This document shows positions 4,158 to 23,639 of a DNA stretch of 24,835 nucleotides, in pieces. A program made the position numbers and the translations under genes. Numbering within the stretch: the stretch's first letter is position 1; every line of letters begins with the position of its first letter. This DNA comes from a virus, in the IMG/VR virus record IMGVR_UViG_3300025891_000008, positions 1-24,835 of that record. One strand, written 5' to 3'. The notes under the pieces are model-generated. The model was given only the letters and a program-made list of their open reading frames with translations. It was not told the DNA's origin and searched no databases.

Positions 4158-4649
4158 ATGTCCGACACCACCCCTGTCCCCACCGACGCCACACCCAAGC
4201 CCACTCCCCCTGCACAGGGTGACGAGGGCGAGCAGACGCCACCGGTCGAGATCGACTGGAAGACGAAGGCTCGGGAGTGGGAGCGCCGCGCGAAGGACAA
4301 CAAGACCGCCGCCGACGAACTGGCGACGATCAAGGAGTCGCAGAAGTCCGAGGCCGAGAAGGCCGGCGAGCGCCTGGCTGTGGCCGAGCGCAAGGCCGCT
4401 GAGGCTGAGGCGCGGGTCCTGCGCCGCGACGTCGCCATCGAGCACAAGCTCTCCAAGGGCGACGCCGAGTTGCTGGACACGATCACGAGCGAGGACGCCA
4501 TGCGCGCCCTCGCCGTGCGGCTCGGGGGGCAGGCAGCGGACGAGAAGAAGCACGGGAACCACGTTCCCCGTGAAGGCAATACCCCAGCCGCTGCGAAGTC
4601 GGGCGAGGGCCTCGAGGCCGTTCGCTCGCTGTTCGGCGGTAACCCCTGA
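4158..4649 (+). CDS. Capsid scaffolding protein
   Basis: A 163-residue, strongly charged protein directly upstream of the major capsid gene. Residues 1-32 are Pro/Thr-rich and disordered; about 32-95 is almost pure Glu/Lys/Ala/Arg and should form a long coiled coil; the C-terminal end has a basic patch (EKKHGNH) and a short amphipathic helix (LEAVRSLFGG). Disordered N-terminus, central coiled coil and basic C-terminal tail is the standard design of phage scaffolds, which bind the capsid protein and are removed on maturation. The ATG follows a GGGAG ribosome-binding site. Classification is by composition and position. Confidence 0.85.
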   Translation: MSDTTPVPTDATPKPTPPAQGDEGEQTPPVEIDWKTKAREWERRAKDNKTAADELATIKESQKSEAEKAGERLAVAERKAAEAEARVLRRDVAIEHKLSKGDAELLDTITSEDAMRALAVRLGGQAADEKKHGNHVPREGNTPAAAKSGEGLEAVRSLFGGNP

Positions 4650-7021: not shown

Positions 7022-7437
7022 TGGCCGGCGTGATCCATGCCGACCTCGAGGCGTTCCTCATCGGCAACCTGTCCGCGTCCCTGACCGCCCGCACGGAGTC
7101 GTTCACGACGTCGGTCAAGGTGTCCAACCATGTCCCGTCCGAGCAGCCCGGCGACCTGTGGCCCACGTCGAAGCGTCTCGTCGTGATCCGTGACGACGGC
7201 GGCCCTGCCCTCGGCGACGTGCGAGCCATCGCCCGCCTGGGCATCCGCGTGTGGGGCGCCAATGCGGGAGAGACGTCCGACCTGGCGAACCTCGTGTCCG
7301 CGCTCATCGGCTCGTCCGAGGGCGCCGGTCCGATCCGCCGTTCCGAAGCGAACCGTCCCTACGACGTCACCGAGGCGTCCACCCGTCCGTGCCAGTACTT
7401 CACTGCGGAGCTCGTCGTCCGCGGCGTTGGTCTCTAG
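7021..7437 (+). CDS. Tail terminator protein
   Basis: A 138-residue alpha/beta protein, the last of the connector block. N-terminal helix (DLEAFLIGNLSASL), a strand-loop (RLVVIRDDGGPALGDVRAIARLGIRVWGAN), then a helix (TSDLANLVSALIGS) and terminal strands (CQYFTAELVVRG). This is the usual fold order of lambda gpU / SPP1 gp17-like tail completion proteins, which cap the tail tube and bind the head. Its TAG stop (7435-7437) lies in a CTAG whose reverse complement is the stop codon of the leftward lipoprotein. The tail-tube gene is next on this strand after that insertion. Confidence 0.78.
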   Translation: MAGVIHADLEAFLIGNLSASLTARTESFTTSVKVSNHVPSEQPGDLWPTSKRLVVIRDDGGPALGDVRAIARLGIRVWGANAGETSDLANLVSALIGSSEGAGPIRRSEANRPYDVTEASTRPCQYFTAELVVRGVGL

Positions 7438-7862
7438 CCGAGGCACCCGATCGCGACCGCTACGGCGGGGTCCGTGCTGGCGATGGCGGCATCCGTGGTG
7501 GCCGAGTCGGGCCAGTCCGTGAACTCCTTGGCGAACCCGTCGACGGACATGGTGATACCGGAGTCGAGCCCGTTGGTCGCCCATACACCGGTCTGATCCT
7601 CGACCCCGGTTGCCGTGAAGCGCATGGCGACGAAGTAGACCTTGCCGTAGTCGGGTGACAGGTACACCTGACCGGTCACCGGCACCATTCCGGTGCCGTC
7701 GAGCGCCCCGGTGGCGATCCGGTCGAGCAGCGCTTGCGGCGCCTGGGTGCACTCGGCCGCCGGCGTCGTACTGGTCCCATGTGCCGGCGCATCGGTCTTG
7801 CCTCCACCCGCGCACCCGGCGAGCAGTCCGACGATCAGCAGCACCCCAGCAGTGGTCCTCAT
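7434..7862 (-). CDS. Secreted lipoprotein, putative moron 1
   Basis: A 142-residue leftward protein inside the rightward structural operon. N-terminus MRTT is followed by a hydrophobic core (AGVLLIVGLLAG) and a lipobox LLAGC with Cys17 as the lipid-modified residue, then a Gly/Thr/Pro linker and a small mature domain (about 35-142) with two cysteines. The lipobox predicts export and anchoring on the outer face of the cytoplasmic membrane. I prefer ATG 7862 over GTG 7868 because GGTGAG lies 5-6 bases upstream. Position and orientation indicate a moron, expressed from its own promoter in the lysogen. Superinfection exclusion is a known role for phage lipoproteins, but here it is inference. I do not recognise the mature domain. 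Confidence 0.8.
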   Translation of the reverse strand: MRTTAGVLLIVGLLAGCAGGGKTDAPAHGTSTTPAAECTQAPQALLDRIATGALDGTGMVPVTGQVYLSPDYGKVYFVAMRFTATGVEDQTGVWATNGLDSGITMSVDGFAKEFTDWPDSATTDAAIASTDPAVAVAIGCLG

Positions 7863-7955
7863 GGCCACTCACCGTACCCCGCCGCGCGCACGGCGGTAGC
7901 CATATCACCCCACCCGGCGGCCGTGCGCTGTCATCTCGACACGAAGGAGAACATC

Positions 7956-15331: not shown

Positions 15332-15384
15332 GGGAGCGGCGGCGGAACGTAGAACACGCCCGGCGGCGGCTGAGGATTGGTCAT
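15328..15384 (-). CDS. 18-residue proline-rich micro-ORF
   Basis: Encodes MTNPQPPPGVFYVPPPLP. The ATG shares bases with the protease stop (ATGA), as in coupled phage genes, and its TAG stop overlaps the TAA stop of the rightward tail gene. The continuous junctions on both sides are why I list it. It is too short to support a function and could be coincidental. Confidence 0.35.
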   Translation of the reverse strand: MTNPQPPPGVFYVPPPLP

Positions 15385-16061
15385 GCGTCCGATCCTACGC
15401 TCGCTGCGACCAGCGCTTCGGCTGCCCTGGTGCTGGCGGCGCTGACGTCCTCGACGTACATCCGGTATTGCTCGTCACCGCTGGCGGCGGCCAAGACGGC
15501 GGCTATCGCGTCGGCCGCGGCCTCGTTGCCTGGGGTCACAGTCTCCTCATACCGGAACAGCGGATCGGTGAACGTAGCGCGCAACTCGGCCTCTTGTAGT
15601 CCTGCCCCGTAGACGATGGCGTGCCCGAACTCGTGACGGACGACGGATCGGATCGCCGCGCCCGGGTCGATTTTGTCGGCGTACTCGGCGTACTCGGCGT
15701 CGTTGGCCTCGATCTGGACAGATACGGCACCGGTCGCGTCCTGGTATGTCAGACCCCACCACGGGTCGTCGAGAACGTAGAAGCCCCACGTCACGTCGCA
15801 CACCGGCAGACCAAGGTCGCGCAGGTCGCGGATCTCGGTCCACGCGATGACGCTCACGGGCCAATCCAGGGCGACCTGACCGCTGCACACTTCGTCGCCA
15901 CCTCGGACTGGCGGCAGGGCAGCGGCCGAGTCGGGGGTGCTGTACCGACCCACCAGTCCGGGCCCTTCTGCGACCGCCGAGGCTACGACCGATCCGCTCA
16001 ACGCCCCAACGGCGGCGAGCATCACGCACGCCTTGGCGACGGAACGGAACATGCCGCCCAC
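15381..16061 (-). CDS. Secreted zinc metalloprotease-like protein, putative moron 2
   Basis: A 226-residue leftward protein between two rightward tail genes. Residues 1-31 form a signal peptide (basic start, hydrophobic core AACVMLAAVGALSG-like, cleavage near AVA|EG). The zinc motif is H143-E-F-G-H147, and E180 in NEAAAD is a good third ligand with the downstream Asp, the gluzincin pattern. C59 and C88 could form a disulfide. I chose GTG 16061 since GGAG lies four bases upstream; ATG 16052 is an alternative. The predicted place of action is outside the membrane or in the cell wall. Substrate unknown: cell-wall remodelling, entry exclusion and host fitness are all possible. Confidence 0.72.
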   Translation of the reverse strand: MGGMFRSVAKACVMLAAVGALSGSVVASAVAEGPGLVGRYSTPDSAAALPPVRGGDEVCSGQVALDWPVSVIAWTEIRDLRDLGLPVCDVTWGFYVLDDPWWGLTYQDATGAVSVQIEANDAEYAEYADKIDPGAAIRSVVRHEFGHAIVYGAGLQEAELRATFTDPLFRYEETVTPGNEAAADAIAAVLAAASGDEQYRMYVEDVSAASTRAAEALVAASVGSDA

Positions 16062-20497: not shown

Positions 20498-21694
20498 ATG
20501 GCACGCAGACCGCACGGCACCGGCTCCGTCTACTACGACGGCACGCGAGGCAGGTACGTCGCCTCCTACGAGGCCGGCTGGACCGCCCGCGGAACCCGGC
20601 GTCGACACAAGGTCACCGGCCGCACCGAGCGCGAGGTGAAGGTCAAGCTCCGCGAGGCCATGCGGGCCGTCGAGACCGACGAGACGGCGACGTCCGCCAG
20701 GCCGACCGTCCGCACCTGGGCGAACCGCTGGCTCGAGATCACCCAGACCACCCACCGACCGACCACATGGGGCGCCAATCGTTCCGCCGTCACGCGGTGG
20801 ATCATCCCGGCCATCGGGCACCGTCGCCTCGACAGGCTCACCCCCGGCGACATCCGAGCCGTCTCTACCGCCATCCTCTCCGGCGGCGGGGCACCAGCCT
20901 CCGCGCGGCGCGTGCACGTCGTCCTCATCAAGATCCTGCGTGATGCCATGCTCGAAGGGCACGCCGTCCCGCCGCGTCTGTTCGAGATGAAGGCACCCGC
21001 GGCGGGGGAGAACGACCGTGACGCGATCCCGCTGCCCGACTCCATCGCCCTGCTCGCCGCAGCGAAGGGCACACCCGACGAGTCCCGGTGGTTCGCGGCG
21101 TTCCTCCAGGGCATACGCCCCGCCGAAGCTCTCGGGCTCACGTGGGACGCGATCGACCTCGACGCCGGCACGGTCGACATCTCCTGGCAGCTCAAGGCGC
21201 TTCCGTACAAGGTTGCGCACGACCGCAGCTCAGGCTTCCGTGTCCCGACCGGGTATGAGGCGCGCCAGATCCGCGGGGCCTGGCACCGGGTCCGGCCGAA
21301 GACCGCATCGGGGCAGCGCATCGTCATGCTCGCCCCAGCGCTGGCCGCATCGCTCGACCGCTGGCGCGAGGCGACCTCGCCGACCGGCCTCGTGTGGTCG
21401 CCTACGAAGGTCCGCACCGATGCCGCCGACCGGGCCGCGTTCTACGCACTCCAGGATGCCGCGGGGGTTCGCCACGAGTCCGGGCGCCGCTACCTCACCT
21501 ACGAAGCGAGACACACGTGCGCGTCCTTGCTCCGGGCGCTGGGGTTCGATGACCAGACCATCACCGCGATCATGGGCCACGCCTCGATCCTGTCCACGAA
21601 GGCGTACATCCACGTCGACCAGGCCCGCAAGCGCGAGGCCGTCGAGGCGCTCGCGGCGAGGCTCGGCCTCGGTGCGCCGCAGATCGAGGGCTAG
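20498..21694 (+). CDS. int: Tyrosine integrase
   Basis: A 398-residue site-specific recombinase. Residues 1-60 (HGTGSVYYDGTRGRYVASYEAG) form the three-strand arm-binding domain, about 70-165 the SAM-like core-binding domain, and 175-398 the catalytic domain. Catalytic residues: R207 in GIRPAEALGLTW, K268 in RPKTASGQR, R338 in YEARH, H361 in GHA and nucleophile Y370 in AYIHV. The first His of the usual HxxR box is Tyr335. Start at ATG 20498 with GGAGG at 20487-20491. It should recombine the adjacent tRNA-derived core with the host tRNA-Thr gene. The TAG stop sits in a CTAG shared with the leftward lipoprotein stop. Confidence 0.94.
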   Translation: MARRPHGTGSVYYDGTRGRYVASYEAGWTARGTRRRHKVTGRTEREVKVKLREAMRAVETDETATSARPTVRTWANRWLEITQTTHRPTTWGANRSAVTRWIIPAIGHRRLDRLTPGDIRAVSTAILSGGGAPASARRVHVVLIKILRDAMLEGHAVPPRLFEMKAPAAGENDRDAIPLPDSIALLAAAKGTPDESRWFAAFLQGIRPAEALGLTWDAIDLDAGTVDISWQLKALPYKVAHDRSSGFRVPTGYEARQIRGAWHRVRPKTASGQRIVMLAPALAASLDRWREATSPTGLVWSPTKVRTDAADRAAFYALQDAAGVRHESGRRYLTYEARHTCASLLRALGFDDQTITAIMGHASILSTKAYIHVDQARKREAVEALAARLGLGAPQIEG

Positions 21695-22188
21695 TCCAAC
21701 ACCGTCGGGATGGTGCCTAGCGTCAGGTCGAGCGGCGCGAAAGCCTCGGCTTCGGGATACCGGAGCGCGTCGCGGCTAGCGATCTCCAGGCCGTAGAACC
21801 CTGACCCCTTGGGCACGTCGTTGACCTCGAACGTGAACCCGCAGTACGCCTCGTTCAGCGCGTCCCCGCCGTCGATCAACTCCAGACCGGTCGAGACCAG
21901 TGCGCCCACGCCGATGACCGCTCCGGACGCGTCGAGCACCGCCACCTGGGCACCGTCTGCATGGTCCTCGTATCCCGTCTTGACGAGACACGTCCCGTGC
22001 TGAGCGTTGTTGCCAGCCCGCAGGTTGGCGGTGAAGTCGAGCTCGACCGCGACGGTACCCGCAACGGTGCCGGTGGCGACGCTCGGCGTTGGGCTGGGGC
22101 TAGATGCCGGAACGTCCTCGCCGCCCGTCCCGCACGCGGCCAGGAGCGAAACGGCGACCGCCACCGCCGCAGTAGAGATGCGCTTCAT
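21691..22188 (-). CDS. Secreted lipoprotein, putative moron 3
   Basis: A 165-residue leftward protein converging on the integrase. Signal sequence KRISTAAVAVAVSLLAAC with lipobox LLAAC and lipid-modified Cys19, then a Ser/Pro/Thr linker (about 20-35) and a beta-rich mature domain (about 40-165) with two cysteines (GTCLVKT and AYCGFTFEV). ATG 22188 has a clear AGGAGGAC ribosome-binding site six bases upstream, so the longer 178-residue frame is rejected. FxxTA...VKTGYEDHADGAQVAVLDASG looks like a small extracellular beta-sandwich. It lies next to the lysogeny genes, a typical spot for genes expressed in the lysogen. Role unknown; exclusion or host-envelope modification is possible. Confidence 0.8.
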   Translation of the reverse strand: MKRISTAAVAVAVSLLAACGTGGEDVPASSPSPTPSVATGTVAGTVAVELDFTANLRAGNNAQHGTCLVKTGYEDHADGAQVAVLDASGAVIGVGALVSTGLELIDGGDALNEAYCGFTFEVNDVPKGSGFYGLEIASRDALRYPEAEAFAPLDLTLGTIPTVLD

Positions 22189-22325
22189 GCTGTCCTCCTG
22201 TTGGTGTGTGCTGCGGCCTACGGCCACCTCGACCCTCGCTTGACATGGGCATCGACCGGGTGCCGGGGAGCGTCGCCTGCGCGTGTCTAGGGCATACCGT
22301 CCTTAAGCGCGACGGTCAGGCGTTG

Positions 22326-22425: not shown

Positions 22426-22605
22426 ATGTCCGCATTCGAGCTTGCCCGGCGCTTCGGTATCCGCATCGTCGAGGTGGACGACCTGCCCATCCCGGTCATC
22501 TACCTCCGCAAGTACGGCATCGCCCTGGTGGACGCCGACCTCACTCCTGAGACTCGGGCGGCTGCGGCGGACTGGCTTCTAGGGGCGGTGGCGTCTCGGA
22601 TGTGA
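22426..22605 (+). CDS. 59-residue protein resembling the N-terminus of ImmA/IrrE-type proteins
   Basis: MSAFELARRFGIRIVEVDDLPI..., then YLRKYGIALVDADLTPETRAAAADWLLGA. This follows the start of ImmA-like metallopeptidases (ARR.GIRVVE..L....I.LD..LTPE.RRA.LAHELGH), but the HExxH is replaced by AADWLLGA, so no catalytic zinc site remains. It could be a non-catalytic ImmA-like anti-repressor that binds the repressor, or simply similar by chance. It converges with the repressor gene, overlapping its 3' end by 65 bases, an unusual arrangement. The ATG follows AGGGG at about ten bases. Confidence 0.5.
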   Translation: MSAFELARRFGIRIVEVDDLPIPVIYLRKYGIALVDADLTPETRAAAADWLLGAVASRM

Positions 22606-22993
22606 TCACGTCCTCTGCCTCTTCCCCGACTGTGCCCATGGCCGCGCTCGCCGCGGCCCGGTTGGTGGTGGCGGCGTTTCCATCGCCCCTCACCCCTCTC
22701 TCGGTCAGGCGCGCCTCGAGCTCGTCGAGTAGCGCGCGGTCGTTGTAGGCGATCAGGGGGCGGTCGGAGGCCATGGCGGTCCCGACCTTTCGCCAGTCGC
22801 CGCCGCTTGACGGCCACAGGGTGTGCACGGCCGCCGCGAGCCTGTCCTCACGGACGAGCACGCCGGCTTCGATGTGCGACCACGTCGCCGCGTTGACTTC
22901 CGCCGCGCGGTAGGCGGCGGACTTGGTGCGATAGCGCCGCTTGCGCTCGGCCTCGACCAGTGCGCCCAGCGTCGCCCGTTCTTCGTCAGTCAT
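22541..22993 (-). CDS. Immunity repressor candidate (HTH)
   Basis: A 150-residue leftward protein. Residues about 3-62 (TDEERATLGALVEAERKRRYRTKSAAYRAAEVNAATWSHIEAGVLVREDRL) read as a helix-turn-helix domain of the XRE-like type, with the recognition helix near AATWSHIEAG; residues about 75-150 are Asp/Glu/Pro/Ala-rich and possibly an oligomerisation or flexible tail. It is divergent from the Cro-like gene at 23170, with phased repeats between them, the usual layout of a lysogeny switch. Starts at ATG 22993 or GTG 22999. A TATAGA -10-like element at 23036-23031 would give a leader of about 25-30 bases. It should silence the rightward early genes. Confidence 0.75.
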   Translation of the reverse strand: MTDEERATLGALVEAERKRRYRTKSAAYRAAEVNAATWSHIEAGVLVREDRLAAAVHTLWPSSGGDWRKVGTAMASDRPLIAYNDRALLDELEARLTERGVRGDGNAATTNRAAASAAMGTVGEEAEDVITSETPPPLEASPPQPPESQE

Positions 22994-23010
22994 GCTCACC
23001 CCGGAAGCGT

Positions 23011-23050
23011 CTCAGAAACACCTAGGAACATCTATAGGCCCCTAGGAACA
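23011..23050 (-). promoter_or_regulatory. Left phased operator array with -10 element for the repressor
   Basis: On the minus strand, 10-base units run without gaps: TGTTCCTAGG at 23050-23041 and 23030-23021 (exact), a 7/10 match at 23020-23011, and at 23040-23031 a unit replaced by CCTATAGA, whose TATAGA (23036-23031) resembles a -10 box. Repressor binding here should cover the promoter of its own gene. Confidence 0.75.
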
Positions 23051-23122
23051 CATCCCACCACCGATGTGACCTGCGCGAATCCCATGGATGTGCTTCTGCA
23101 CGTCATCGACTTGCGTTCCTGA

Positions 23123-23162
23123 TGTTGCTAGGTGTTGCCAAGTGTTCCTAGGTGTGGTTAGG
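23123..23162 (+). promoter_or_regulatory. Right phased operator array before the Cro-like gene
   Basis: Four contiguous 10-base units end seven bases before the ATG at 23170. The third (23143-23152) is an exact TGTTCCTAGG; the others match 9/10 (23123), 7/10 (23133) and 7/10 (23153). The last overlaps the AGGTGA ribosome-binding site. It has the same orientation relative to its gene as the left array. Confidence 0.75.
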
Positions 23163-23169
23163 TGAGCAC

Positions 23170-23424
23170 ATGCCCACACCAACGACCATCGAGATCCACG
23201 GGCCAGCGATCCGCGAGATCCGCGTCCGCTCCGGCATGGGAGTCGCCGAGCTCGCAGCCGCGGTCGGCGTCAACCGCCCGTACATCGCCAAGATCGAGCT
23301 GGGCCACTCCCGCAAGGTGAGCCCCAAGGTCTTCAACGCGCTCATCGCAGCGCTCACCATCAACGACCGGCGTGCGATCATCGCGAACCCCTACGGCGCC
23401 GATGGCGTCGCCGAGGTGGCCTGA
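23170..23424 (+). CDS. Cro-like HTH DNA-binding protein
   Basis: An 84-residue protein. Residues about 12-60 (IREIRVRSGMGVAELAAAVGVNRPYIAKIELGHSRKVSPKVFNALIAAL) are a clear XRE helix-turn-helix with the turn at AVGVN and recognition helix RPYIAKIE. Starts at ATG 23170, with AGGTGA a few bases upstream lying inside the phased array. It is the first rightward gene past the repressor, and its product should turn the switch toward lytic growth or repress the repressor. Stop overlaps the next ATG (TGATG), so it leads the early operon. Confidence 0.82.
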   Translation: MPTPTTIEIHGPAIREIRVRSGMGVAELAAAVGVNRPYIAKIELGHSRKVSPKVFNALIAALTINDRRAIIANPYGADGVAEVA

Positions 23425-23639
23425 TGACCACCCCGATCGCCCCCGTCTCGTTCTCCTACGAGACCGCAGAGGCCGCTACCGGGATCTCCGCGCGCAACAT
23501 CCGCCGCGCTGTCGACGCCGGGGACATCACCGTGCGCTACCCGGTGATCGACGGCCGCCAGACGACCAAGCCCGTGATCCTCCGCGACGAGCTCTACGCG
23601 TGGATCGCCCGTGGCGCAACGGAGCGGAGGGCCTCATGA
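23424..23639 (+). CDS. Excisionase-like HTH protein
   Basis: A 71-residue protein with FSYETAEAATGISARNIRRAVDAGDITVRYPVIDGRQTTKPVILRDELYAWIARG, the helix-turn-helix-wing pattern of MerR/excisionase-type domains: a helix, GISARNIRRAVDAG (recognition helix), and a final hydrophobic D-ELYAWIAR. It starts at the base shared with the Cro-like stop. As an excisionase it would bend attP and direct the integrase towards excision; an early transcription regulator is the alternative. Its stop overlaps the next ATG (ATGA). Confidence 0.72.
   Translation: MTTPIAPVSFSYETAEAATGISARNIRRAVDAGDITVRYPVIDGRQTTKPVILRDELYAWIARGATERRAS

Follow-up and report, generated by a model that had tools for sequence, protein, structure and literature searches.

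A divergent repressor/Cro switch with asymmetric, 10-bp-phased candidate operator units in a phage of actinobacterial type

In phage 186, the Apl protein binds seven direct repeats, spaced 10–11 bp apart, between the promoters pR and pL (PMC7498355). Binding is cooperative and head to tail, and both promoters, which face each other, are regulated from this single group of repeats; Apl is, in addition, an excisionase that also uses att. More generally, Apl, Cox and Xis sites are typified by direct repeats spaced one helix turn apart (PMC7498355). Cluster A mycobacteriophages (L5, TipsytheTRex) carry more than 20 asymmetric 13-bp operators and stoperators, which are oriented with transcription, scattered through the genome and bound by a two-domain monomer (PMC9283540). 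Outside phages, the XRE-type regulator Rco of the conjugative plasmid pLS20 acts at divergent promoters with many short (8-bp), mostly co-oriented motifs; in the portion of that account consulted, the promoters overlap, a 75-bp spacer loops, and strict 10-bp phasing is not described (PMC4207663).

In lambda-type switches, genes for an HTH repressor, CI, and for the small Cro protein diverge, repeated dyad-symmetric sites overlap both promoters, and CI has a C-terminal oligomerisation and cleavage domain. Here, we describe a switch that would be lambda-type in its logic. It lies in the window, the whole stretch of DNA that was analysed, which is an entire IMG/VR record of 24,835 bases and may be a fragment only. 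The window derives from a high-GC temperate phage or prophage of actinobacterial type, with an SPP1-type portal, a VanY-type endolysin and a tyrosine integrase (20498–21694). About 170 bases of intergenic DNA separate its leftward repressor gene from its rightward Cro-like gene. To our knowledge, actinobacterial prophage switches are mostly uncharacterised.

The window shares with 186 Apl and P2-type Cox the direct repeats one helix turn apart in the switch region. However, its arrays lie inside two back-to-back promoters, the likely binders are an HTH_31/HTH_3 repressor and Cro rather than an excisionase, and units outside the switch were found neither in the window nor in any of nine related records. 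Like the Cluster A sites, the units are asymmetric and oriented with transcription in an actinobacterial setting, but they are 10 bp long, phased at 10 or 20 bp and confined to the switch, with one to three exact matches per record, and the modeled repressor has a single confident HTH domain (residues 1–79). Compared with lambda, the gene arrangement and the overlap of repeated sites with both promoters are the same, whereas the operators are direct repeats, the promoters appear leaderless and a CI-type C-terminal domain is not predicted. The switch thus departs in at least one tested defining feature from the lambda-type, Cluster A and Apl/Cox/Xis systems and is a variant of known phage switches. 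The statement in an earlier note on this DNA that no phage switch with this layout had been described was too strong, given the seven Apl repeats at 10–11 bp (PMC7498355).

Elsewhere in the window, three leftward genes (7434–7868, 15381–16061 and 21691–22227, all on the minus strand) lie in or beside the rightward structural operon. They encode predicted secreted proteins or lipoproteins, one of them with an HEFGH metalloprotease-like motif, and have no match in Pfam. These genes look like morons expressed from the prophage.

Phased units in the window and in related switches

The exact unit TGTTCCTAGG occurs three times in the window, on the minus strand from 23050 and 23030 and on the plus strand from 23143, always between the divergent genes and nowhere else in the 24.8-kb record; 200 dinucleotide shuffles gave a mean of 0.005 per shuffled window. 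The positions and match counts that the earlier note had given for the two arrays were all correct on recount (Table 1), and its picture of a divergent repressor/Cro switch with 10-bp-phased asymmetric units, each array directed toward its own gene, was borne out across 13 switches, the window included. The best four-unit array in the intergenic DNA matches at 33 of 40 positions with a period of 10, as against 18–21 of 40 for all other periods from 8 to 15. In the right array, self-identity at a lag of 10 over 30 bp is 22, above all shuffles (null maximum 19). The left array reaches 16, against a null 95% level of 17, and by this measure falls short of significance in the window by itself; what establishes it is the conserved spacing of its units in the 13 homologous switches. 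As direct repeats, the units are asymmetric, and the one palindromic part is the CCTAGG core of some of them. The cores of two left units (23021–23046, minus strand) can pair into a terminator-like stem-loop, which is probably incidental because it lies upstream of the presumed start on the repressor side.

Table 1. Features of the switch region, in order along the window. Hexamers and promoters are candidates; offsets and z-scores refer to the position-matrix test.
Feature	Coordinates	Strand	Description
Repressor gene	22541..22999	-	152 aa; HTH_31-like, weak match; homologues aligned; AF2 model
Putative P_rep -10	23006..23011	-	GACGCT, six bases before GTG 22999; position conserved, sequence weak
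Left unit 4	23011..23020	-	TGTTTCTGAG, 7/10; relatives mostly YGTKTCTG; offset +10, z=6.3
Left unit 3 (central unit)	23021..23030	-	TGTTCCTAGG, 10/10
Putative P_rep -35	23029..23034	-	TAGATG, 17 bp from the putative -10; kept in most of the 13 switches
Left position 2	23031..23040	-	degenerate GGCCTATAGA, 4/10; relatives mostly TGNNNGTAGA; offset -10, z=3.4
Left unit 1	23041..23050	-	TGTTCCTAGG, 10/10; offset -20, z=7.8
Central conserved block	23067..23105		from alignment; TGACCTGCGGAA...TTCCGCAGGTCA; dyad in some relatives
Extra upstream half-unit	23114..23119	+	CGTTCC; lies 29 bp upstream of the right central unit; out of 10-bp phase
Right unit 1	23123..23132	+	TGTTGCTAGG, 9/10; specific to the window
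Right unit 2	23133..23142	+	TGTTGCCAAG, 7/10; holds -35 TTGCCA (23135-23140); offset -10, z=4.4
Putative P_cro	23135..23163	+	TTGCCA-17 bp-TTAGGT, then 6 bases to ATG 23170
Right unit 3 (central unit)	23143..23152	+	TGTTCCTAGG, 10/10; within the 17-bp P_cro spacer
Right unit 4	23153..23162	+	TGTGGTTAGG, 7/10; overlaps -10 TTAGGT (23158-23163); offset +10, z=3.7
Cro-like gene	23170..23424	+	84 aa; Pfam HTH_3 5e-8; AF2 model
Small HTH_17/excisionase-like gene	23424..23639	+	71 aa; phrog_66 E=4e-4

Single window proteins used as queries gave few relatives or none, and alignments of three or more proteins found them; the switch family was recruited with alignments built from the few Cro-like and repressor homologues obtained first. 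The resulting comparison comprises 13 homologous switches, the window included, mostly from prophage contigs together with the Gordonia phage Lysidious. Three contigs of the family sit in genomes, two of which are named Nocardioides. One contig binned as Dehalococcoidia (L018, SCVR01000015.1) has a switch of this actinobacterial type and is probably misbinned.

In all 13 switches, left units stand at 0, +20 and +30 with exact spacing and read toward the repressor, and on the right a unit lies inside the promoter spacer. Because the layout recurs in a dozen related prophages, we take it to be real. The phase was examined with a leave-one-out position matrix (PWM) built from the central units and slid across every offset. 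On the left, the best offsets were -20 (z=7.8), +10 (6.3) and -10 (3.4), the best other offset reaching 2.5. On the right, they were -10 (4.4), +10 (3.7), +20 (3.2, at a position that runs into the start codon) and -20 (3.0, carried largely by the window), followed by -26 (2.7). The best-scoring offsets besides the anchor are multiples of ten on both sides, in 13 switches that are related by descent. Random spacing in related phages, the outcome that the earlier note had set against its own reading, was looked for, and the spacing was found to be exactly conserved instead. In its four-unit right array, the unit at 23123 is not shared by relatives and those at 23133 and 23153 double as the putative P_cro -35 and -10.

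The units are also confined to the switch beyond the window. In nine related records of 37–51 kb, TGTTCCTRNG has one to three matches per record, all in the switch, and the reversed control has 0 or 1. A two-unit pattern with gaps of 0–20 bp, scanned against the viral collection, gave at least seven pairs at a gap of 10, six of those listed being these switches; other gaps inspected among the matches listed fell in coding sequence or simple repeats. An AT-rich viral contig (L063, near base 4191–4210) repeats TGTTCCTGGG head to tail every 10 bp; this is probably a simple repeat with no relation to the switches. The literature was also searched for the motif, and among the matches listed all were unrelated.

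Distant homologues with altered units keep the 10- or 20-bp spacing. These are L008 (AGTGACTGGG, TGTTCCTGGG and TGTGACTGGC) and L039, L040 and L175, which have, as does Lysidious, TGTGACTGG or GGTTTCCTG units spaced 10 or 20 bp apart. An additional site accompanies each array: at P_rep it lies 20 bases upstream and in phase, and on the cro side a GTTCC lies about 26–29 bp upstream of the right central unit in most relatives, out of phase (23115 in the window). No further TGTTCC-type units were found in the central region between the arrays. Between the left central unit and the cro ATG, the switches have anything from about 113 to 128 bp; a rigid phasing between the two arrays was therefore rejected, and no fixed loop geometry is indicated.

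Promoter and start-codon geometry

All close relatives have TTGNNN (mostly TTGCCA), 17 bases, TTNNNT and six bases before the cro ATG, a gap that lengthens in distant homologues to eight bases in Lysidious and seven in L039 (7–8 in L039 and L008). On the repressor side, the likely -35 element in the homologues is TAGATG, and the likely -10, at a spacing of 17 bases, is a weak nACNNT hexamer. The distance from the repressor start to the central unit is 31–32 bases in all homologues (in L017, if the ATG at +31 is used), and because this distance is conserved GTG 22999 is most likely the start, rather than ATG 22993 as had been proposed in the earlier note. Putative core promoter and start codon keep a fixed geometry at both ends of the switch. 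Promoter hexamers placed directly before the start are the geometry of leaderless mRNAs, which are common in actinobacteria, and both promoters look leaderless. With hexamers and starts so placed, two adjacent units would fill the -35/-10 interval of each promoter.

The second left unit had been described as replaced by TATAGA, a -10-like element. TATAGA is private to the window, where a degenerate unit, GGCCTATAGA (4/10), occupies this position; relatives have GTAGATG, and for want of conservation TATAGA was rejected as the P_rep -10. Scanning with a generic sigma-70 model gave no promoter, because its threshold excludes the P_cro and P_rep hexamers.

Candidate binding proteins and alternative readings

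We give a probability of roughly 0.6 to the reading in which repressor and Cro share the arrays as operators in a lambda-like divergent switch, these operators consisting of asymmetric direct-repeat units of 10 bp and not of dyads. Here, the operator unit would be YGTKNCTRRG, with a further unit 20 bp upstream at P_rep and 26–29 bp upstream at P_cro. Repressor HTH protomers would bind the units head to tail, possibly cooperatively, and block RNA polymerase at P_cro, resulting in lysogeny; at a higher level, the repressor would also block RNA polymerase at P_rep and so regulate itself. The Cro-like protein would also recognise these units, with a preference of its own, and shut P_rep in lytic growth. 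Among the points against shared operators are that promoter hexamers overlap two of the right-hand units, that the upstream site on the cro side does not keep the phase, and that HTH_3 proteins as small as these usually occupy dyads as dimers.

The AF2 model of the repressor consists of its one confident HTH domain, a short helix and a disordered tail; it shows neither a second DNA-binding domain nor a CI-type C-terminal domain, and it leaves room for oligomerisation. For the Cro-like protein, a small HTH_3 fold resembling that of C-proteins and SinR is predicted. Its best segments are 62–85% identical in relatives and its recognition region is nearly invariant, the repressor being more variable. 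As both proteins change together with the unit in the distant homologues (Lysidious, L039, L040 and L175), the data choose neither as the binder. Other Gordonia phages failed as an arbiter for the same reason, and a repressor homologue lacking a Cro partner was not found among 346 genomes. We infer that the repressor binds the units, a role for which Cro fits equally well.

The most serious competitor to shared operators, though considerably less probable, has one regulator alone reading the TGTTCC units and the other reading the central block (ACA-N4-TGT or TTCCGCAGGTCA) as a dyad. The block is conserved between the arrays, forms a strong dyad in three relatives (L011, L012 and L014 only) and carries ACA-N4-TGT at -88 to -91 in 7 of 11 close switches. 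In addition, Lysidious keeps the units with a Cro-like protein that is 49% identical, and full-length tblastn with the window repressor has no phage match, so that the unit may follow Cro. Against this division of labour, the window and several relatives have the dyad in degenerate form only, and the arrays cover both promoters as shared operators should. An earlier ungapped dyad test of the block was negative. The central dyad was rejected as the main operator of the window (7/10 arm matches, no better than shuffles); the block is possibly a second operator.

The 10-bp period could instead be a by-product of promoter hexamers that happen to look like units, with one true operator unit per promoter, as right units 2 and 4 do contain TTGCCA (-35) and TTAGGT (-10). 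This is improbable: the left -20 and +10 units are exact, with the -20 unit explained by no hexamer, the GTG of right unit 4 (23154–23156) is conserved within the P_cro spacer, where bases are normally free, and Lysidious has a complete unit, AGTGACTAGC, in the place of right unit 4. Slightly less credit still goes to filament-like loading, in which the repressor would polymerise from the units along one face of the DNA. The head-to-tail, same-face phase is that of Xis, Cox and Apl (PMC7498355), but most relatives have just two contiguous conserved units per promoter, the central region adds none, and the repressor is modeled as a small HTH followed by a short helix and a disordered tail. Least probable of all is that a recombination directionality factor, the small HTH protein encoded at 23424–23639, has its binding sites in the arrays, in the manner of Apl in phage 186. 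Direct repeats spaced by one helical turn would suit such a protein (PMC7498355) and its excisionase-like gene follows cro in the window. However, units outside the switch are found neither in the window, which has a tyrosine integrase, nor in the nine related records; about half of the relatives keep the arrays although the gene that follows cro there is not Xis-like; and Lysidious keeps the units with a serine integrase. The 23424 protein was rejected on these grounds and is unlikely to be the binder.

A second unit in Gordonia phages

A different unit, GTTTGCC, is present on the repressor side as two copies with a spacing of exactly 20 bases in the Gordonia phages Clark, MichaelScott, Wocket, Fenry, Jalammah, KappaFarmDelta and Kuwabara, with a copy in the cro promoter region in Clark, MichaelScott and KappaFarmDelta; several of the seven are close kin, leaving roughly three independent cases. 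The pattern was sought and not seen in Moosehead, Howe, Suerte and Annalisa, which makes it a class and not a rule. A study of Gordonia phage repressors does not mention operators (PMC6426606).

The 20-bp spacing shared by unrelated units suggests a wider class. Tentatively, and at somewhat below even odds, its members would be actinobacteriophage switches whose repressor and Cro protomers, and not an excisionase, sit head to tail on one face of the DNA, on asymmetric 10-bp units inside leaderless promoters, with at least two specificities (TGTTCCTAGG and GTTTGCC) sharing the 20-bp geometry. If so, immunity specificity could change by a swap of units within a fixed frame. The switch would also be a compact example of XRE/HTH_3-type phage regulators acting at both promoters through helically phased asymmetric direct repeats, and the rule (10- or 20-bp phase, spacer-embedded unit, leaderless start) would find operators and predict immunity groups in actinobacterial prophages.

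Separately, Gordonia immunity repressors (including L008 1481–2242) share a near-identical C-terminal tail of about 33 residues while their other parts differ. This tail is possibly the target of an antirepressor encoded nearby, or a degradation tag.
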